Positions 12,104 to 21,513 of a DNA stretch of 64,000 nucleotides are shown here, piece after piece. This DNA is from Acidimicrobiales bacterium mtb01 (GTDB lineage: Bacteria; Actinomycetota; Acidimicrobiia; Acidimicrobiales; Ilumatobacteraceae), in the NCBI GenBank assembly GCA_004379135.1, contig NBNI01000007.1:1227501-1291500 (forward strand). The letters are read 5' to 3'. How positions within the stretch are numbered: the first letter of the stretch is position 1; each line of letters starts with the position of its first letter. The position numbers and the translations under genes were made by a program. The notes beneath the pieces are model-generated. The model did not search any database and was not told the origin of the DNA. It saw only the letters and a list, made by a program, of their open reading frames with translations.

Positions 12104-12991
12104 ATGGCCGACCGCCGCGGATCACGGAATTTCGACCGCGCCGCCCTGCTCGCCGCCATTCCGCTGATTTCCGTTCTGCCGCTGTGGGCCGTGGCCATGG
12201 TTCCGTTCTGGCTGGTCCTGAATCTGGTGATCGACGTCTCGTATCCGGCCGCGGCCGGCATCTACGTGCTGGCCGGCCTGACCCTCTTCGTGCCGGTGGT
12301 GCAACGTGTCGTCCTCACCCGTCTGATCGGCGCTCGACGCCCGACCGCAGAAGAGGCCCCTCGACTCCAACGCGCCTTCGACGAAGTCGCGCAGGCGCTC
12401 CACGTGCGCGACCGCGGATTCGCCCTGGGCGTGGTGGACGACGATGCCGTCAACGCGTTCGCCTCGGGAGGACACCTCGTGGTCGTCACGTCGTATGCCG
12501 CCCGCCACCTCGAGCACGACGCGTTGTGCGGCGTGCTCGCGCACGAGTTCTGTCATCACCTCGGATCGCACACCCTCGCGCTCACCATGCAGCAGTGGCT
12601 GATGCTCCCCGTCACCACACTCGCCCGCCTCGGCTCGTATCTGCGCAACGTCGCGCTCGCGGCATCCGACACGTTCGCTCGATCGTCCGGTCCGGCTCGG
12701 CGAACCGGGCGGGTGATCGCGTCGATCTTCAACGGGCTCTCATGGTTCTTCGAGATCGGCAGTGTGGCCAGCCATGCGCTCAGCAATCTGGTCGGACGAT
12801 CGGCCGAGTTCCGGGCCGATCAGCGAGTGATCGCCATGGGGTACGGACGTCAGTTGGCCGAGGCGCTTCGACGCACGACGACACAACAATCCAGTCGGCC
12901 GACGAGGTGGTCACACCTTCTCGAGACGCATCCCCCGGCTCGAACGAGAATCGCCCGCATCGAAGCCACGCTGCGCCGCAAACGCCGCTGA
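12104..12991 (+). CDS. M48-family membrane zinc metalloprotease
   Basis: 295 residues from the ATG at 12104 (MADRRGSR); an in-frame upstream ATG at 12065 would overlap the divergent gene and is less likely. Two hydrophobic segments near the N-terminus (AIPLISVLPLWAVAMVPFWL and GIYVLAGLTLFVPVV) precede the catalytic HEFCHH (HExxH, His147). The third ligand region AEFRADQRVIAMG, with its glutamate, is near residue 240. It resembles HtpX/Ste24-like M48 peptidases acting on membrane proteins at the cytoplasmic face. Context gives no substrate. Confidence 0.85.
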   Translation: MADRRGSRNFDRAALLAAIPLISVLPLWAVAMVPFWLVLNLVIDVSYPAAAGIYVLAGLTLFVPVVQRVVLTRLIGARRPTAEEAPRLQRAFDEVAQALHVRDRGFALGVVDDDAVNAFASGGHLVVVTSYAARHLEHDALCGVLAHEFCHHLGSHTLALTMQQWLMLPVTTLARLGSYLRNVALAASDTFARSSGPARRTGRVIASIFNGLSWFFEIGSVASHALSNLVGRSAEFRADQRVIAMGYGRQLAEALRRTTTQQSSRPTRWSHLLETHPPARTRIARIEATLRRKRR

Positions 12992-13047
12992 GAATTCGAC
13001 TGCGCGCCGACCGACGGCCCTGCGGATCACCTGCGAGACTCTTCCTC

Positions 13048-13692
13048 ATGCGCACGAATTCCCGCGCCTCGCTTCTCATCACGGCCGCCCTCGCTCTTCC
13101 GATCACGGCCTGCGGCTCGGATGAGACCGCGCCTGAAACATCCTCCGCAGCAGTGACGACGACGACCGTGCCGGCGAGCACCACCACGACGATCGCAACG
13201 ACCACCACGACCCTCTGGACCGGGCCGCCGACCCTGGCCCCCGGCGCCACGTTGCCGACGCCGATCGCCCCACCCGGCCCGGACGAAGTCGACCCCGAGG
13301 TGCTCATGGGCACGATGGAGATTCCGGCGCTCATGATGTCGTCGCCGATCTACGAAGGGATCACCGACCCGACGTTCGATCGCGGCGTCGGTTGGTGGCC
13401 CGGTACCGCTCGTCCCGGCGAACCCGGAAACGTCGTGCTCGGAGGCCACCGCACCAGTACCCCCCGACCCTTTCGCCATCTCGAACTCCTCGAACCGGGC
13501 GATGAAATCGTCTTCACCATCGACACGGGCGTGTTCGTCTATCGCGTGACCGGCACGCAGATCGTCGAACCCGAAGCCATGTGGATCGTCGACCAGACAC
13601 CGTTGGCCACCGCGACTCTCTTCGCGTGCCATCCACCCGGATCGACCAAGGAGCGCATCGTCGTGTTCGCCGAGTTCGATCGTCGGGCGTAG
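13048..13692 (+). CDS. Sortase-family transpeptidase with lipoprotein signal (class E/F-like)
   Basis: 214 residues. The N-terminus has a short hydrophobic signal ending in a lipobox-like ITAC (Cys22), then about 50 residues rich in Thr, Ala and Pro (27-75). The sortase core from 85 onwards shows GNVVLGGHRTST with catalytic His134, TLFACHPPG with Cys194 and KER with Arg203: the full His-Cys-Arg triad. Sortases attach surface proteins to peptidoglycan or polymerise pilins; lipid anchoring instead of a transmembrane signal is unusual. No LPxTG substrate is apparent nearby. It sits 12 bases before lnt, an enzyme of lipoprotein maturation. The ATG at 13048 is preceded by a weak GAGAC. Confidence 0.86.
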   Translation: MRTNSRASLLITAALALPITACGSDETAPETSSAAVTTTTVPASTTTTIATTTTTLWTGPPTLAPGATLPTPIAPPGPDEVDPEVLMGTMEIPALMMSSPIYEGITDPTFDRGVGWWPGTARPGEPGNVVLGGHRTSTPRPFRHLELLEPGDEIVFTIDTGVFVYRVTGTQIVEPEAMWIVDQTPLATATLFACHPPGSTKERIVVFAEFDRRA

Positions 13693-15676: not shown

Positions 15677-16489
15677 GTGATCGAACTCGCCGCCGGCCCT
15701 CACACCGCTCGCGTCGACGACGAGTGCGGCGGACGGCTGGCGTCGTTGCGCTTCGATGGCCGAGAAGTCCTCGTCACCCACGATGTCGAGACGACCACTT
15801 CTCCGCTCGGCTGGGGGTCGTATCCGATGGTGCCGTTCGCCGGTCGCATCCGACACGGACGGTTCACGTTCGACGGACGCGTTCACTCCCTCCCGCTCAA
15901 CATGCCACCTCACGCCATCCACGGCACGGTGTTCGAATCGCGTTGGGACGTCGTCGACACGGACGACCTGACGTGTCGGCTCCGGTGCGATCTCGGAGAA
16001 CAGTGGCCGTTTCGAGGTCGTGTCGAGCACGTCATCGCGCTGCGCCATGACTCGACCGGCCGCGGAGGCGTCGACCACCGACTCACGGTGTTCGCCGAAG
16101 AACCGATGCCGGCTCAGGTCGGTTGGCATCCTTGGTTCGTCCGACCCGTGTCGAGCCGCCTGCGTTTCAGAGCGATGCATCGGCGCGATGCCGAAGGAAT
16201 CGCGCGACCAGTCGAGTCGCCGATTCCGGATCTCGTTCCCGGCGCGATCGACGACAGTTTCGTCGATCCTCAAGAGATCTTGACGCTCCACTACGACACC
16301 TTCGATCTCGAACTCACGAGCACGTGCCGCGACTGGGTCGTCTACGACGAGCCGACGCATGCGACCTGCGTGGAACCCCAATCCGGCCCACCCGATGCGC
16401 TCAATCACGCCCCTTCCGTGGTGACACCTTCCCAGCCGATGACCCACCGATTCGCCATCGAGTGGGTCGCCCGCGCGGCCCGAGCGTGA
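15677..16489 (+). CDS. Aldose 1-epimerase (galactose mutarotase) family protein
   Basis: A 270-residue beta-supersandwich epimerase. Family motifs: [14 protein letters not shown] with the substrate-binding Arg, [11 protein letters not shown] (His), VGWHPWF (His) and the catalytic Glu in [13 protein letters not shown]. It interconverts alpha and beta anomers of aldoses; galactose would fit the galT and alpha-galactosidase genes 6-7 kb away, but hexose-6-phosphate mutarotases share the fold. It begins with GTG at 15677. The 42-base gap to divergent dtd holds both promoters. Confidence 0.85.
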
Positions 16490-16580
16490 CGTACGTCCCG
16501 CCGACGGGGTGATCGTCGGGCAGACTTTCTGCGAGATCTCCGGACGCCGCGTCTCTTGCTCGACGTGGAGACGACGAAAC

Positions 16581-18377
16581 ATGACCACCACGACCGACGC
16601 CCAACTCGTCTCCGCCTACTTGAGCGGCGATCGCACGGCTCTGGCGACGATCTACGACCGCTACGCACCGGGGCTGTACGACACGGCGCGAGCGATGTTG
16701 TCCGATCGCCACGACGCGTCCGACATGGTGCAGGACGTCTTCGTGATCGCGGCCGAACGCCTCGATCAATTGCGCGAACCCGACCGACTCAAGCCGTGGC
16801 TCTACGCGGTGCTGCGCAACGAGGTGTACCGCCGCACCAAGAAGCGCAAGCGCGCGGTGCCCACCGACTTCCAGAGCGAGACGGTGCCTGACGTGCCGGC
16901 CGCCTACGACCCGCGACAGGCGGGAGAGGCGATCGCCTACGAGGAGTTGGCGTCGATGGTGCGTTCGGCCTCGGCCGGCCTCGACGAACGCGACCGTCTC
17001 GTGCTCGAACTGTCGGTGCGCCAAGGATTGTCGGGGTCCGATCTCGCCGATGCTCTCGGCGTGTCGGCCGAGCAGAGCTACTCGCTCGTTCACCGCATGC
17101 GTGAACGCGTGGAGAAGAGCCTCGGTGCCTACGCCGTCGCCAAGGCCGGCCGACGTGACTGCGCCGATCTCGATCGGTTGCTCGCCGCATGGGACGGCGA
17201 ATTCACCGTGCTCATCCGCAAGCGCGTGAATCGGCACATCGAGGAATGCGAGACCTGCGATCGCAGCCGCAAGACCCTCGCCCCGCTGGCGCTCTTCGGT
17301 GCCGCACCGGCGTTCGTCCTGCCCTTCGGCCTCCGCGATCGTGTTCTCGCGGCCACCGCCAACGTCGGACCCGGTGCCGGTTCGGGCTCGGGCAGCACAT
17401 CGACGAGCAGTTCTTCGTCGACACCGTCGACTTCGTCGACATCGACGCCATCGTCGTCGCGACTGTCGTTCGATGCGCGCACGGGCTTCCCTCGTGCGGC
17501 CCGTCTCGGTCGGCGCGCTCTGTTCGCGCTCTTCGGTTCGTCGATCGCCGTGATCGCGGTGGTGGGTGCCGTCCTGGTGGCGCAAACCGATGGCGACGAG
17601 CAAGCCGGCGATTCTTCGAGCGCCGTCACCGAGGTGAGTACGACGACACCTGACGAGACGACCGTCGGGTCCGACACCGGCGGGTCCGACACCGGCGTCG
17701 GTGTGGTGTCGCCGATGGTGCCGACACCTCCCCCACCCCCACCGGGCGGCTCGGGCAACTCCGGCAACTCGGGCAACTCGGGCAACACGGGCAACACGGG
17801 TGCGGGGGGCCCGCCGGCGGCTCCCACCGACACGAATGCTCCACTCGCACCGGCCGGATCCACCGTCACCACGACCACGATGGTCGCGACGACCACCGCG
17901 CCTGTCGCGCCCGTGGCACCTACGTCCACCGCGGCACGCTCGTCGGCGACGACATCACCACCCAAGACGACAACCACCACGACAACGACATCGCCGCCGA
18001 AGACCACGACCACGACATCAACACCCAAGACGACGACCACGACGACTACGACGACTGCCGCACCTCAGCGCACACTCGTGCTCAGCAAGGTGGCCGGAAC
18101 GTTCCCGTCGTGCAGCACGTTCGGCGTTCAAGGAGTCGTCACCACCACCGAAACTGGCATCCAGGTCTTCGGCGAGGTCGAATTCTTCAACATCGACAAG
18201 AAGACGCTCGGCGTTCGTCAGGTGAAGGTGGCGCTCGCCACCGCGTCCACGTGGCGTGGCACCGTTGCCACCACGCCCACCGGAGCGGTGAGCGCTCGGA
18301 TCCGCCTCACGGCCCGGTCGATGTCGGGTTTGACCAGCACCGGAACCGGATCGGCCACCCAGACCAACACGTGCTGA
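16581..18377 (+). CDS. ECF sigma factor fused to zinc anti-sigma-like motif, membrane span and Thr/Pro-rich exterior domain
   Basis: 598 residues from ATG 16581, with GGAG about 10 bases upstream; the longer start at 16509 lacks homology. Residues 8-85 are sigma region 2 ([20 protein letters not shown]) and about 125-185 region 4 ([20 protein letters not shown] helix-turn-helix). Then comes a zinc-finger anti-sigma-type motif H219-x3-C223-x2-C226, a Ser/Thr linker, one transmembrane helix near 312-334 ([17 protein letters not shown]), a long low-complexity region with GNS/GNT and Thr-Pro repeats (about 345-490), and an approximately 100-residue C-terminal domain with two cysteines. Sigma factor, tether and possible sensor are thus one polypeptide. 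Release by proteolysis is an inference. The terminal domain is not recognised. Confidence 0.88.
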
Positions 18378-18405
18378 AAGTGACCCGCCGGTAGCCTCGG
18401 CTCTC

Positions 18406-19704
18406 ATGCCCGCAGCGCCGGACCCCAATGGTCCCCTTCGCCTCGCGTACCTCACGTACCGCGGCAAGCCGCATGTGGGCGGCCAGGGCGTGTACACCCG
18501 TCACCTCACCAAGGCCCTGGTCGACCTGGGCCACTCGGTCGAGGTGTTCGGCGGACAGCCCTATCCGATCCTCGACGACCGCATCACGCTCACCAAACTC
18601 CCGAGCCTCGATCTGATCAACGACCACTACCCGTTCCGGTTCCCGGCCATCTGGGAACTCAAGACCCGCGAGGACTGGCTCGAGGTCGGCTTGTTCCTCA
18701 CCGGGCAGTTCGCCGAACCGGCCGCGTTCAGCGCGCGCGTGAAGCGCCACCTCGCGCAGCGCGTGTCCGAGTTCGACCTGATCCACGACAACCAATGCCT
18801 CGGCTACGGGATCCTCGGCCTCGAGAAACTCATCCCCACGATCGTCACGTTGCACCACCCCATCACCCGCGACCGCGCGCTCGAGATGGATCACGCGCCG
18901 AACTGGCGCAAGAAGTTCGGAGTCAGCCGCTTCTACTCGTTCGTCAAGATGCAAGGTCGTGTGGCCAGCCGTATGCCGCGCATCGTCGTGGTGAGCGAGA
19001 ACAGCATCAAGGACATCCACGGCGACATGGGCGTGTCGTTCGATCGCATGCGCCTCGTTCCGGTGGGCGTCGATCCCGATCTGTTCAAGCCGCTTCCCGG
19101 CGTCGCGCGGGTTCCGGGCCGCCTCATCACCACCGCATCGGCCGACGTGGCCCTGAAGGGTCTGGCCTATCTGCTCGAGGCGATGGCCAAGTTGCGTACC
19201 GAACGCGATGTCACGCTCACCATCATCGGCAAGCCCAAGCCCGGTAAGAGCATGGACCTCATCGACAAACTGGGTCTGCGCCCGCACATCCAGTTCGTGT
19301 CGGGAGTTCCCGACGAGCGCATCGTCGAGTTGTACGCCGAAGCCGAATTGGCCGTCGTACCGTCGCTCTACGAGGGCTTCAGCCTCCCGGCCATCGAAGC
19401 CATGTGCACCGGCATCTGCCTGGTTGCCACCGACGGCGGGGCACTCCCCGAAGTCACCGGTCGCGATGGCGACACGGTGTTGCAGTGCCGGGCCGGTGAC
19501 TCCGAGGCACTGGCCAGCGCGCTGCGTCGCGGACTCGACGATGCCGAACTCCGGACTCGCGTCGGCGCCAACGGCCGCCAGCGCGTGGTCGACCGCTGGA
19601 CCTGGCGTCGTTGCGCCGAAATGACCGTCGATCAGTACCGCGAGGTCCTCGCGATGCCGGCCAACATCGAGAAGTTGCGTCGCAACGGACGGCTGAAGGG
19701 CTGA
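18406..19704 (+). CDS. Family 4 glycosyltransferase (GT-B fold)
   Basis: A 432-residue GT-B retaining glycosyltransferase. The N-terminal acceptor domain begins RLAYLTYRGKPHVGGQGVYT with the glycine-rich loop. The C-terminal donor domain has PSLYEGFSLPAIEAM, the E-x7-E nucleotide-sugar motif. No membrane segment is seen. It is first in a co-directional cassette with a methyltransferase 4 bases on and a toroid-fold protein overlapping that. The same kind of trio occurs in other actinobacteria with unknown function. It follows the membrane sigma-factor gene by 28 bases and may be cotranscribed. Confidence 0.88.
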   Translation: MPAAPDPNGPLRLAYLTYRGKPHVGGQGVYTRHLTKALVDLGHSVEVFGGQPYPILDDRITLTKLPSLDLINDHYPFRFPAIWELKTREDWLEVGLFLTGQFAEPAAFSARVKRHLAQRVSEFDLIHDNQCLGYGILGLEKLIPTIVTLHHPITRDRALEMDHAPNWRKKFGVSRFYSFVKMQGRVASRMPRIVVVSENSIKDIHGDMGVSFDRMRLVPVGVDPDLFKPLPGVARVPGRLITTASADVALKGLAYLLEAMAKLRTERDVTLTIIGKPKPGKSMDLIDKLGLRPHIQFVSGVPDERIVELYAEAELAVVPSLYEGFSLPAIEAMCTGICLVATDGGALPEVTGRDGDTVLQCRAGDSEALASALRRGLDDAELRTRVGANGRQRVVDRWTWRRCAEMTVDQYREVLAMPANIEKLRRNGRLKG

Positions 19705-19708
19705 CGAC

Positions 19709-20473
19709 GTGCTCACCGTTCGCTTCGAACGTCTCGGACTCACGCCGGGCGATCTCGTTCTCGATGCCGGAGCCGGTTTCGGACGTCACGCGTACGAAGT
19801 CGCGCGGCGAGGCGGCCGGATCGTGGCTCTCGACTACGCCGACGACGAAGTCCGGACCACCCGGGCCACTTTCGCCGCCATGATGCAGGCCGGCGAGATC
19901 GAACGCGACTCGTACGTGGGCGTCATGCGCGGCGACGCCACGAGACTCCCCTTCGACGACGCCACGTTCGACCGCGTGATCACCTCCGAAGTCCTCGAGC
20001 ACATCCAGGACGATGTGTCGGCCATCGCCGAATTGGCCCGGGTGCTGCGCCCGGGCGGAACCTTCGCCTGCACCGTCCCCTCGTGGTGGCCCGAGAAGAT
20101 CAACTGGAAATTGTCCGACGAGTACCACGCCCCCAAGTCGGTGGGCGGACACGTGCGCATCTACAGCCGCACCGAACTCGAGGCCAAGCTGCGCGCCGCC
20201 GGACTCGACGTTCGCGGTCACCATCACGCCCACGCGTTGCATTCGCCGTACTGGTGGCTCAAGTGCGCGGTCGGCCCGCGCCGCGACGATCATCCGCTCG
20301 TCAACGGCTACAAGAAGTTCCTCGAATGGGACATCGTCAAGCAACCCCGTTCGATCCGCGCCGTCGAGCGTGCACTGTCGCCCGTCATGGGCAAGAGCCT
20401 CATCGTCTACGCCGTCAAGCGTCCGGCCCCGGCTCGCCGCTCCGCCCCCGTTCGAGAGCTGGTGAACGCATGA
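19709..20473 (+). CDS. Class I SAM-dependent methyltransferase
   Basis: A 254-residue Rossmann methyltransferase of the Methyltransf_11 type: motif I VLDAGAGFGRHA (17-28), acidic strand-2 end VALDYAD, DATRLPFDDATFD and RVLRPGGTFACTVP. The C-terminal extension (YWWLKCAVGPRRDDHPLVN) is rich in aromatic and basic residues and could contact a lipid or glycan acceptor. The start is GTG at 19709, 4 bases after the glycosyltransferase stop; its TGA overlaps the next ATG. The substrate is unknown and presumably shared with its two partners. Confidence 0.88.
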   Translation: MLTVRFERLGLTPGDLVLDAGAGFGRHAYEVARRGGRIVALDYADDEVRTTRATFAAMMQAGEIERDSYVGVMRGDATRLPFDDATFDRVITSEVLEHIQDDVSAIAELARVLRPGGTFACTVPSWWPEKINWKLSDEYHAPKSVGGHVRIYSRTELEAKLRAAGLDVRGHHHAHALHSPYWWLKCAVGPRRDDHPLVNGYKKFLEWDIVKQPRSIRAVERALSPVMGKSLIVYAVKRPAPARRSAPVRELVNA

Positions 20474-21513
20474 CCCTCATTCGTCATCTCGGCGTCCCGC
20501 ACATCGAAGGCGTCCTCAGCGCCGACGAAGTGGTCCAGACCGCCGAGTCGATCGCTCGCCTGCAACTCGACTCCGGGATGATCCCGTGGTTCGAGGGCGG
20601 ACACTGCGACCCGTGGAACCACGTCGAGACCGCCATGGCGCTCGACATCGCCGGCATGCATTCTCACGCGGAGCGGGCATACGAATGGCTCAAGAACACC
20701 CAGCACCGTGACGGCTGGTGGTTCAACTACTACCTGCCGGGCGGATTCGTCGAGGAGCCCAAACTCGACACCAACGTGTGCGCGTACGTCGCCGCTGGTG
20801 TGTGGCACCACTGGCTGTGCACATGGGATCGCGGTTTCGTCGATCACATGTGGCCCACCGTCGAGCGGGCCATCGAATGGGTGCTCTCGATGCGTCGTCA
20901 CGACGGAACCATCCTGTGGGCCCGTGAAGAGCATGCCTCTCCGTGGGACTACGCGCTCCTCACCGGATCATCGTCCATCTGGCACGCACTTACGTGCGCG
21001 GTCGAACTGGCCGATCTGGTCGGTGACGAACGTCCGCACTGGCGCGAGGCCGCCGACACGTTGCGCAACGTCATCTGCACGCGCCCCGACGCGTTCGAAC
21101 CCAAGACCCGCTGGGCCATGGACTGGTATTACCCGGTGCTCACCAATGCCATGGAGGGCGAGGCCGCGCGGGCACGTCTGGCGCACGGTTGGGGCACCTT
21201 CGCCATGGAGGGTCGCGGCATCCGTTGTGTCAGCGACGAACCGTGGGTCACCGCGGCCGAGACCGCCGAGTGCTCGCTCGCCCACACCGCGGCCGGCGAC
21301 ATCGACACCGCCACCGATCTGCTTCTCTGGACCCGCGCCCATCGTCACGACGACGGCTCGTACTGGACGGGTGTGGTCTATCCGAGTCGCGAGAACTTCC
21401 CGGCCGGCGAGCGCACGGCGTACACCGGAGCGGCGGTGATCCTGGCCGCCGACGCGATCGACTCCGGATCCCCGGCGTCGCGCATCTTCGTCCCCTCGCT
21501 CGTCGTCGACTGA
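20470..21513 (+). CDS. Prenyltransferase/squalene-cyclase-like alpha-alpha-toroid protein
   Basis: 347 residues, almost all helical, with repeated aromatic motifs (AYEWLKNTQHRDGWW, WVLSMRRHDGTI, AHRHDDGSYWTGVVYP) as found in terpene-cyclase/prenyltransferase or six-hairpin glycosidase toroids. The squalene-hopene cyclase DxDD acid motif and protein-prenyltransferase zinc ligands are not evident, so it is not a standard member of either. The ATG at 20470 overlaps the methyltransferase stop. It is annotated simply as prenyltransferase in many actinobacterial genomes. A role in modifying or hydrolysing the glycan made by the preceding two enzymes is an inference. Confidence 0.7.
   Translation: MTLIRHLGVPHIEGVLSADEVVQTAESIARLQLDSGMIPWFEGGHCDPWNHVETAMALDIAGMHSHAERAYEWLKNTQHRDGWWFNYYLPGGFVEEPKLDTNVCAYVAAGVWHHWLCTWDRGFVDHMWPTVERAIEWVLSMRRHDGTILWAREEHASPWDYALLTGSSSIWHALTCAVELADLVGDERPHWREAADTLRNVICTRPDAFEPKTRWAMDWYYPVLTNAMEGEAARARLAHGWGTFAMEGRGIRCVSDEPWVTAAETAECSLAHTAAGDIDTATDLLLWTRAHRHDDGSYWTGVVYPSRENFPAGERTAYTGAAVILAADAIDSGSPASRIFVPSLVVD

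Follow-up and report, generated by a model that had tools for sequence, protein, structure and literature searches.

A fused ECF sigma factor and zinc anti-sigma domain in one predicted membrane protein of Ilumatobacteraceae and other Acidimicrobiia

Several groups of ECF sigma factors in which the sigma part and an anti-sigma part share one chain have already been published. Specifically, the available parts of a 2022 review describe ECF48, ECF52 and ECF53 as sigma factors fused at their C-terminus to a zinc anti-sigma (ZAS) domain and a transmembrane (TM) part, with activation expected to occur by proteolysis (PMC8999054). The ECF52 proteins combine a zinc finger, a TM helix, a proline-rich part and a carbohydrate-binding domain, and one of them, SCO4117 of Streptomyces coelicolor, has been studied experimentally, proteolytic release being proposed in the accessible portion of that work (PMC5826349). 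The predicted fusion in ECF52/53 is also mentioned in the part available of a further review (PMC10766802). Fused membrane sigma factors are thus predicted in several ECF groups, yet IutY is the only fused case with an experimentally shown release mechanism according to the sections available of the 2022 review (PMC8999054).

A protein of this general kind is encoded in the window (the whole stretch of DNA that was analysed, 64 kb in length), directly followed by genes of a putative glycan cassette. For the Acidimicrobiia, many of which are known only from metagenomes, the locus hints at a switch that senses the surface and is coupled to a glycan operon. The features on which the following description relies are:

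16531..16556, + strand, promoter-like motif GCGAGA-N16-CTCT (exact match; ends 24 nt before the ATG)
16581..18377, + strand, fused sigma / anti-sigma membrane protein (598 aa, stop-free translation)
16650..16853, + strand, sigma-70 region 2, residues 24-91 (Pfam Sigma70_r2, 48.9 bits, cut-off 24)
16959..17108, + strand, sigma-70 region 4, residues 127-176 (Pfam Sigma70_r4_2 below cut-off, NCBIfam sigma70-ECF above)
17139..17321, + strand, zinc anti-sigma (ZAS-like) domain, about residues 187-247 (zinc pattern kept in the family; profile matches RsiW)
17364..17492, + strand, Ser/Thr-rich tether between ZAS and TM, about residues 262-304 (composition; length varies in the alignment)
17523..17579, + strand, transmembrane helix, residues 315-333 (mean hydropathy 2.53)
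17580..18062, + strand, Thr/Pro/Ser-rich exterior stretch with GNS repeats (composition, sequence)
18063..18374, + strand, C-terminal beta-sandwich, Ig/FnIII-like, with C511 and C598 (predicted model; Foldseek and VIA matches)
18406..19704, + strand, GT4 glycosyltransferase (Pfam Glycos_transf_1; 28 nt after the sigma gene; conserved neighbour)
19709..20473, + strand, SAM-dependent methyltransferase (Pfam Methyltransf_11)
20470..21513, + strand, GH15-like protein (weak match to TIGR01577, oligosaccharide amylase; its ATG overlaps the methyltransferase stop)

The initial annotation had proposed that sigma regions 2 and 4, a ZAS motif, a TM helix, a Thr/Pro-rich exterior and a C-terminal domain lie in one chain, and this was borne out by the 598-aa frame, in which the sigma, ZAS and TM parts follow each other unbroken, as is required of a fused ECF sigma / anti-sigma factor with a regulatory extension. 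Its statement that such parts are normally separate proteins is too strong: they are fused here, but ECF48, ECF52 and ECF53 fusions had been published (PMC8999054, in the parts available). Nor can the protein be called an undescribed one-component device, given these groups and the study of SCO4117, as described in the available portions of both sources (PMC8999054, PMC5826349).

The sigma part has the general ECF composition, i.e., regions 2 and 4 without region 3. The NCBIfam model sigma70-ECF spans residues 20-180 at 76.7 bits (cut-off 42.9), and the predicted structure of region 2 aligns with region 2 of E. coli sigmaE (VIA Z 14.7, 94 residues aligned, rmsd 2.4). Region 4 is weak in Pfam, with Sigma70_r4_2 scoring 22.0 against a cut-off of 25.7 bits (E 1.2e-4). 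The sigma and ZAS helices are formed in the AlphaFold model of residues 1-345, although with a pTM of 0.37 the model does not demonstrate docking of the ZAS part on the sigma part, and its VIA comparison concerned mostly the sigma part (residues 2-188).

Behind region 4, the chain carries the zinc pattern C194-x24-H219-x3-C223-x2-C226 (HIEECETC at 219-226), in which C194 is a fourth candidate ligand that had been overlooked before. This is the arrangement of class I ZAS domains (C/H-x~24-H-x3-C-x2-C in a helical domain), and the model places helices at 195-241. The Pfam family zf-HC2 remained below its cut-off in the fused protein (11.5 and 15.8 bits versus 22.2), and among 25 ZAS stretches of related proteins it matched ten (up to E 1). 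When a 25-row ZAS profile, composed of 23 rows of the window's lineage and two of the ECF52-like side, was compared with the PDB, five matches up to E 10 were retrieved and all of them were anti-sigma factors: RsiW, DdvA, ChrR twice, and RslA (chain 3hug_B, identified by entry title). Only RsiW was significant (E 8.8e-4), the other four lying at E 0.12-0.44. The invariance of the His and the two Cys in this alignment is built in because its rows were cut around H-x3-C-x2-C; the unselected counts given below come from 30 family loci and 24 class loci found by searching with sigma plus ZAS. Residues 187-247 are accordingly predicted to form a ZAS-like domain with a complete candidate zinc pattern.

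The predicted TM helix is the most hydrophobic segment of the chain, the next best being residues 233-251 (mean 1.84), just past the ZAS part. By the positive-inside rule (RR before the helix, D/E after it) its N-terminal side should face the cytoplasm. The variation in tether length was read from an alignment made without L009, which has ambiguous bases, and L017, which has a deletion. A separately started C-terminal half, raised earlier as an objection to a single protein, was not seen and we rejected it, since no ATG occurs in frame between codons 173 and 379. With GTG/TTG codons in the same frame at 177, 200, 210 and 216 (judged by eye), such a start is unlikely rather than strictly excluded.

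We consider it likely, with a probability of about 0.7, that this protein is a self-inhibited, membrane-tethered ECF sigma factor that carries sigma and zinc anti-sigma parts in one chain, would be freed by proteolysis and would activate its own gene, i.e., a new lineage of a known kind.

The 150 genomes of a family search, drawn from a larger group, included 46 with a match at E <= 1e-20, and the matched places numbered 49. As no matched stretch contained an internal stop, we rejected a pseudogene or frame artefact; the interruption between sigma and ZAS parts that the initial annotation had named as fatal to its proposal likewise did not appear. The best 30 of the 49 places (L065-L094) were read individually. 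All 30 possess a Cys exactly 25 residues before the His, along with H-x3-C-x2-C. Every one of the 23 frames that end within their locus is fused, with the sigma part followed by a hydrophobic segment (mean hydropathy 1.55-2.53) and then by approximately 200-350 outer residues, for a total of 517-670 aa from the match start; among these, L091 is partly masked and L075 is apparently frameshifted near its end, in the outer part. The other seven frames reach a contig end still open, two of them (L082 and L090) before the TM helix. Five weak places among the other 19 (29-35% identity, frames of 268-343 aa) may be unfused sigma factors. Several of the 30 loci share genomes with a set of 13 close loci (L005-L017), and the two sets were kept separate. 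In one of these 13 (L017:5836-7728) an in-frame deletion removes the second Cys of the CxxC and the juxtamembrane part, which may reflect a misassembly or yield a constitutively active factor.

Next to the family, a class search over 247 drawn genomes matched 46, among them members of further families in both the order and the class. H-x3-C-x2-C is kept by all 24 additional loci retrieved in this way, of which L138 and L156 belong to the family and 22 do not; the Cys precedes the His by 25 residues in 19 loci and by 26 in five. A hydrophobic segment follows in 23 of them, L138 stopping at a contig edge before the segment. Two weak matches, whose frames span 192 and 266 aa, could be ordinary sigma factors without a fusion. 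Identity over sigma plus ZAS was 73-96% within the genus; among the other genera with the gene it was mostly 53-69%, falling to about 42-46% in some, and the last ~110 residues of more distant members shared 20-23% identity with the window. Because of these orthologue counts in family and class, the architecture is not a product of chance.

No Pfam match up to E 1 was found in the outer part of the protein. The model of its last domain, built from a six-row alignment, consists of beta strands only (best of five models pLDDT 81.7, the other four 61-67). Foldseek retrieved Ig/FnIII-type domains (best E 4e-4), and VIA gave Z 9.2-10.5 to many such domains among the matches listed, e.g., an FnIII domain of integrin beta4 (Z 9.9, 94 residues aligned, rmsd 2.7). 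Since many Ig/FnIII-type domains match about equally, no family is claimed. The sensor domain of the anti-sigma factor RsgI4 was also among the Foldseek matches, weakly (rank 35, E 5e-3). In many orthologues, inspection by eye of the last ~100 residues showed an early Cys, a middle Trp, ATD-x2-G or similar late in the domain and a terminal Cys, a pattern of which the window's domain resembles a derived version. Outside the family, L142, L143, L147, L149 and L152 have different C-terminal ends, and in L012 the stretch before the outer domain weakly matches the Ig-like family PF22544 (E 8e-4, below cut-off). We infer that an envelope or glycan signal would be the cue of this domain, and its Ig/FnIII-like fold, as modelled, may bind sugars.

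A search for a shared promoter motif upstream of position 16581 and its homologues had been proposed, and one was indeed found. Its two blocks (GCGAGA-like and CTCT) were derived from an alignment of the upstream regions of orthologues. The pattern NNNAGR-N16-CTCY occurs upstream of 33 of 35 orthologous loci (the 30 family loci plus L011, L012, L015, L016 and L017), starting 50-82 nt before the start codon, a count that overstates independence because the motif was read off the same, related sequences. The same blocks at other spacers (8 to 29) were present in 0-8 of the 35 regions. Both loci that lack the pattern are one change away from it, L082 with ATCT for CTCT and L088 with a 17-nt spacer. 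Within its own genome, the 36-nt form of the motif (up to 3 mismatches) was found at the sigma gene and nowhere else. Nine of 12 genomes of the genus have a place of this form, at the sigma gene in eight and elsewhere in G115. The short pattern is not enriched in the 64-kb window (4 places versus 6.7 expected), and a sigma-70 consensus scan of 16300-18700 returned no promoter-like sites. The distantly related family member L156 has no copy of the motif; outside the family, one of 22 loci (L140) carries it. Typical ECF promoter elements are AAC / CGT. The motif is unlike these and could be recognised by another factor. We read the motif as pointing to self-activation of the sigma gene together with the downstream glycosyltransferase operon.

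Regarding that operon, a GT4 gene lies downstream in all seven close loci whose sequence extends far enough; the distance is at most 70 nt in five, ~0.4 kb in L007 (partly masked) and 1.7 kb in L016. On the other side, dtd precedes the sigma gene in 12 of 12 close loci with upstream sequence, and an aldose-epimerase-like gene is inserted between the two in the window, L005 and L006 only (among 13 close loci). The GH15-like protein matches TIGR01577 at E 4.4e-16 with 58.6 bits, far from the cut-off of 820.7, and has no Pfam match. The short flanks of the 24 class-search loci did not reveal GT4, so that, in the loci covered, the sigma-GT4 link belongs to the family. Control of the cassette by the sigma factor, as proposed by the initial annotation, is plausible because of the 28-nt gap, the shared strand, the gene order conserved in the family and the promoter-like motif upstream, and we infer it from this arrangement. 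Farther upstream, a sortase gene occupies window positions 12184-13692 (best NCBIfam match class E, below cut-off), and the order of sortase, lnt and dtd is conserved in related loci.

Further copies of the motif were sought with the long form GCGAGA-N16-CTCTGGAC. Allowing up to 1 mismatch, it was found at 26 places, 10 of them exact, in eight genomes of two genera that have the sigma gene; six of the 26, all exact, are the gene's own promoter. Eight family genomes without a match to the sigma gene yielded five places and none exact. When own promoters are excluded, 20 copies in 37.3 Mb compare with five in 32.0 Mb (binomial p 0.009), and a reversed pattern used as control occurred 12 times in the genomes with the gene versus 14 times in those without. 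Within the genomes with the gene, the 20 copies only modestly exceed the 12 of the reversed pattern, and four additional exact copies versus none do not reach significance by themselves (p 0.13). A run of three A or T just before the site accompanies 12 of the 20 extra copies and one of the five controls, a feature noticed in the same data in which it was counted.

Judged by eye, 13 of the 20 extra copies lie within ~200 nt upstream of genes for exported, membrane or WhiB-like products, two are unclear (L101, L105) and five have no such gene, and by the same look none was seen near the five control places. Among the candidate targets, some of which were compared with Pfam, are a subtilase, an M23 peptidase, lipoproteins, small secreted proteins rich in Cys, and a pair of similar secreted proteins in two genomes. 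Since the genomes are related, matching sites among them are not independent. We regard the motif copies at L095-L120, from two genera of Ilumatobacteraceae, as a candidate surface regulon. In L106 / L116, two divergent copies are located between a subtilase gene and the gene of a Pro-rich protein with one TM helix, which has an Ig-like part by eye and no Pfam match.

These data also bear on whether the motif is the sigma factor's own. It might instead be the site of another regulator, with the fused sigma gene as a mere target and no self-activation, a reading suited by blocks that differ from the ECF promoters usually encountered and by the WhiB-like genes that share the motif in two genomes. 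We find this rather doubtful, as the two blocks with their constant 16-nt spacing, 50-82 nt before the start codon, resemble a -35/-10 pair, and the exact long form follows the presence of the sigma gene (10 places in the eight genomes with it, six of them its own promoter, versus none in the eight without). What is new here is the two-block motif with a 16-nt spacer and its further copies near exported-protein and WhiB-like genes in two related genera. With this conserved candidate promoter and the few candidate targets listed, activation and regulon alike could be tested directly by reporter assays.

In our preferred reading of a self-inhibited sigma factor, the ZAS part would silence the sigma part on the cytoplasmic side of the membrane, and the exterior domain would report on the cell envelope. 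A first cut outside the membrane, followed by a second one by a site-2 (M50) protease, would cost the ZAS part its grip and set the sigma part free. The freed factor would then transcribe its own gene and the GT4, methyltransferase and GH15-like genes in a positive feedback and, in relatives with larger genomes, exported-protein genes as well. The masking and release steps are modelled on the described relatives, as presented in the available parts of two sources (PMC8999054, PMC5826349). M50 proteases are encoded in the own genome, and likewise in all 14 control genomes.

That some release step is needed, as had been argued earlier, is supported by the one-chain architecture, and the step could in principle leave the chain intact: loss of zinc, oxidation of thiols or a conformational change might open the ZAS part, with the sigma part acting at the membrane while still tethered. 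The zinc pattern, complete and with three Cys, would fit such a switch, and the long, flexible Ser/Thr-rich tether on the cytoplasmic side could let a tethered sigma factor work. However, redox sensing would not require the stalk and exterior domain kept in most relatives read, proteolysis is expected for the same architecture, and IutY is cut (PMC8999054, in the parts available), and for these reasons we hold release without proteolysis to be unlikely. A role of the exterior half mainly as a wall-bound adhesin or as a structural element, with the sigma part a vestige, might be suggested by the strong variation of the outer part in length and sequence and by the loss of part of the ZAS region in L017, but is very improbable when sigma and ZAS are well conserved and it is the last ~110 residues of distant members that are reduced to 20-23% identity with the window.

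Searches beyond the class extend the range of the fusion. By tblastn of the inner part against plasmid records, fused proteins were retrieved from Nonomuraea gerenzanensis (37% identity) and Thermomicrobium roseum (WP_012642865.1, 33%), and a fused relative from Cellulosimicrobium bears an AbfB domain. The Thermomicrobium protein (L050:3956-5266) is a sigma-ZAS-TM fusion outside Actinomycetota. Fused relatives in Kitasatospora/Streptomyces carry a CAP domain, identified by Pfam in L052 and L056 and by eye in L051, L054 and L055, and the Streptomyces protein L059 ends in an NPCBM domain (Pfam, 113 bits). Among side observations, Streptomyces sp. S.PB5 (L059-L062, L064) encodes several distinct fusions of sigma, zinc finger and TM parts, some of which seem by eye to bear ricin-like repeats, and two short Streptomyces sigma factors (L021, L057) end directly after the ZAS motif without a TM helix, possibly as soluble self-inhibited forms.

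A tree of sigma plus ZAS revealed one main split with support of 100/100, separating 20 rows on the window's side from eight (L059 and seven others). The Nonomuraea, Thermomicrobium, Kitasatospora/Streptomyces CAP and Cellulosimicrobium fusions all fall on the window's side. The tree has 28 rows, is unrooted and has long branches for which the program warns of possible false joins; L055 (ZAS out of frame) and, for reasons of size, L054 and most close orthologues were left aside. L059 was called ECF52-like from its NPCBM domain and architecture and stands in for SCO4117. Because the fused protein is placed apart from this ECF52-like Streptomyces protein, it is not filed as ECF52, and membership in that group was rejected from the tree split together with the lack of a recognisable carbohydrate-binding C-terminal domain. 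It may belong to ECF48 or ECF53, both of which were compared by description only. No paper on this lineage was found in the literature searched, an absence that says little with subscription papers mostly outside the search.

A broader picture can be offered tentatively, at somewhat less than even odds. The protein would represent a separate, unassigned lineage of self-inhibited sigma/ZAS/TM proteins in several Acidimicrobiia families, with kin in Streptosporangiales, Streptomycetaceae, Promicromonosporaceae and Thermomicrobia, whose outer domains (Ig-like, CAP, AbfB) are exchangeable. In Ilumatobacteraceae the atypical promoter GCGAGA-N16-CTCT would allow the lineage to switch on itself, a glycan-building operon and exported proteins, and thereby to monitor and rebuild the cell surface.

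Compared with the known systems, the zinc part is closest to the class I anti-sigma factors RsiW, ChrR and RslA, which share the H-x3-C-x2-C pattern and the profile match; these are separate proteins, whereas the window's ZAS is fused behind sigma4. Likeness to IutY of Pseudomonas putida (ECF243) is by description alone: it also has sigma and anti-sigma in one chain, serves iron-starvation cell-surface signalling and is reported to be released by Prc and RseP (PMC8999054, in the sections available). ECF48 and ECF53, as the same portions describe them, resemble the window in having ZAS and one or two TM helices C-terminal to sigma (PMC8999054). The ECF52 protein SCO4117 has, like the window's protein, an ECF sigma part, a zinc finger, a TM helix, a proline-rich exterior and a C-terminal domain in one chain (PMC5826349, in the portion available). 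The two differ in that ECF52 has an NPCBM-type carbohydrate-binding end and the window's protein an Ig/FnIII-like fold without a Pfam match, and the ECF52-like L059 and the window's protein lie on opposite sides of the main split of the tree. The fused protein is thus another lineage of the already published fused membrane ECF sigma factors.
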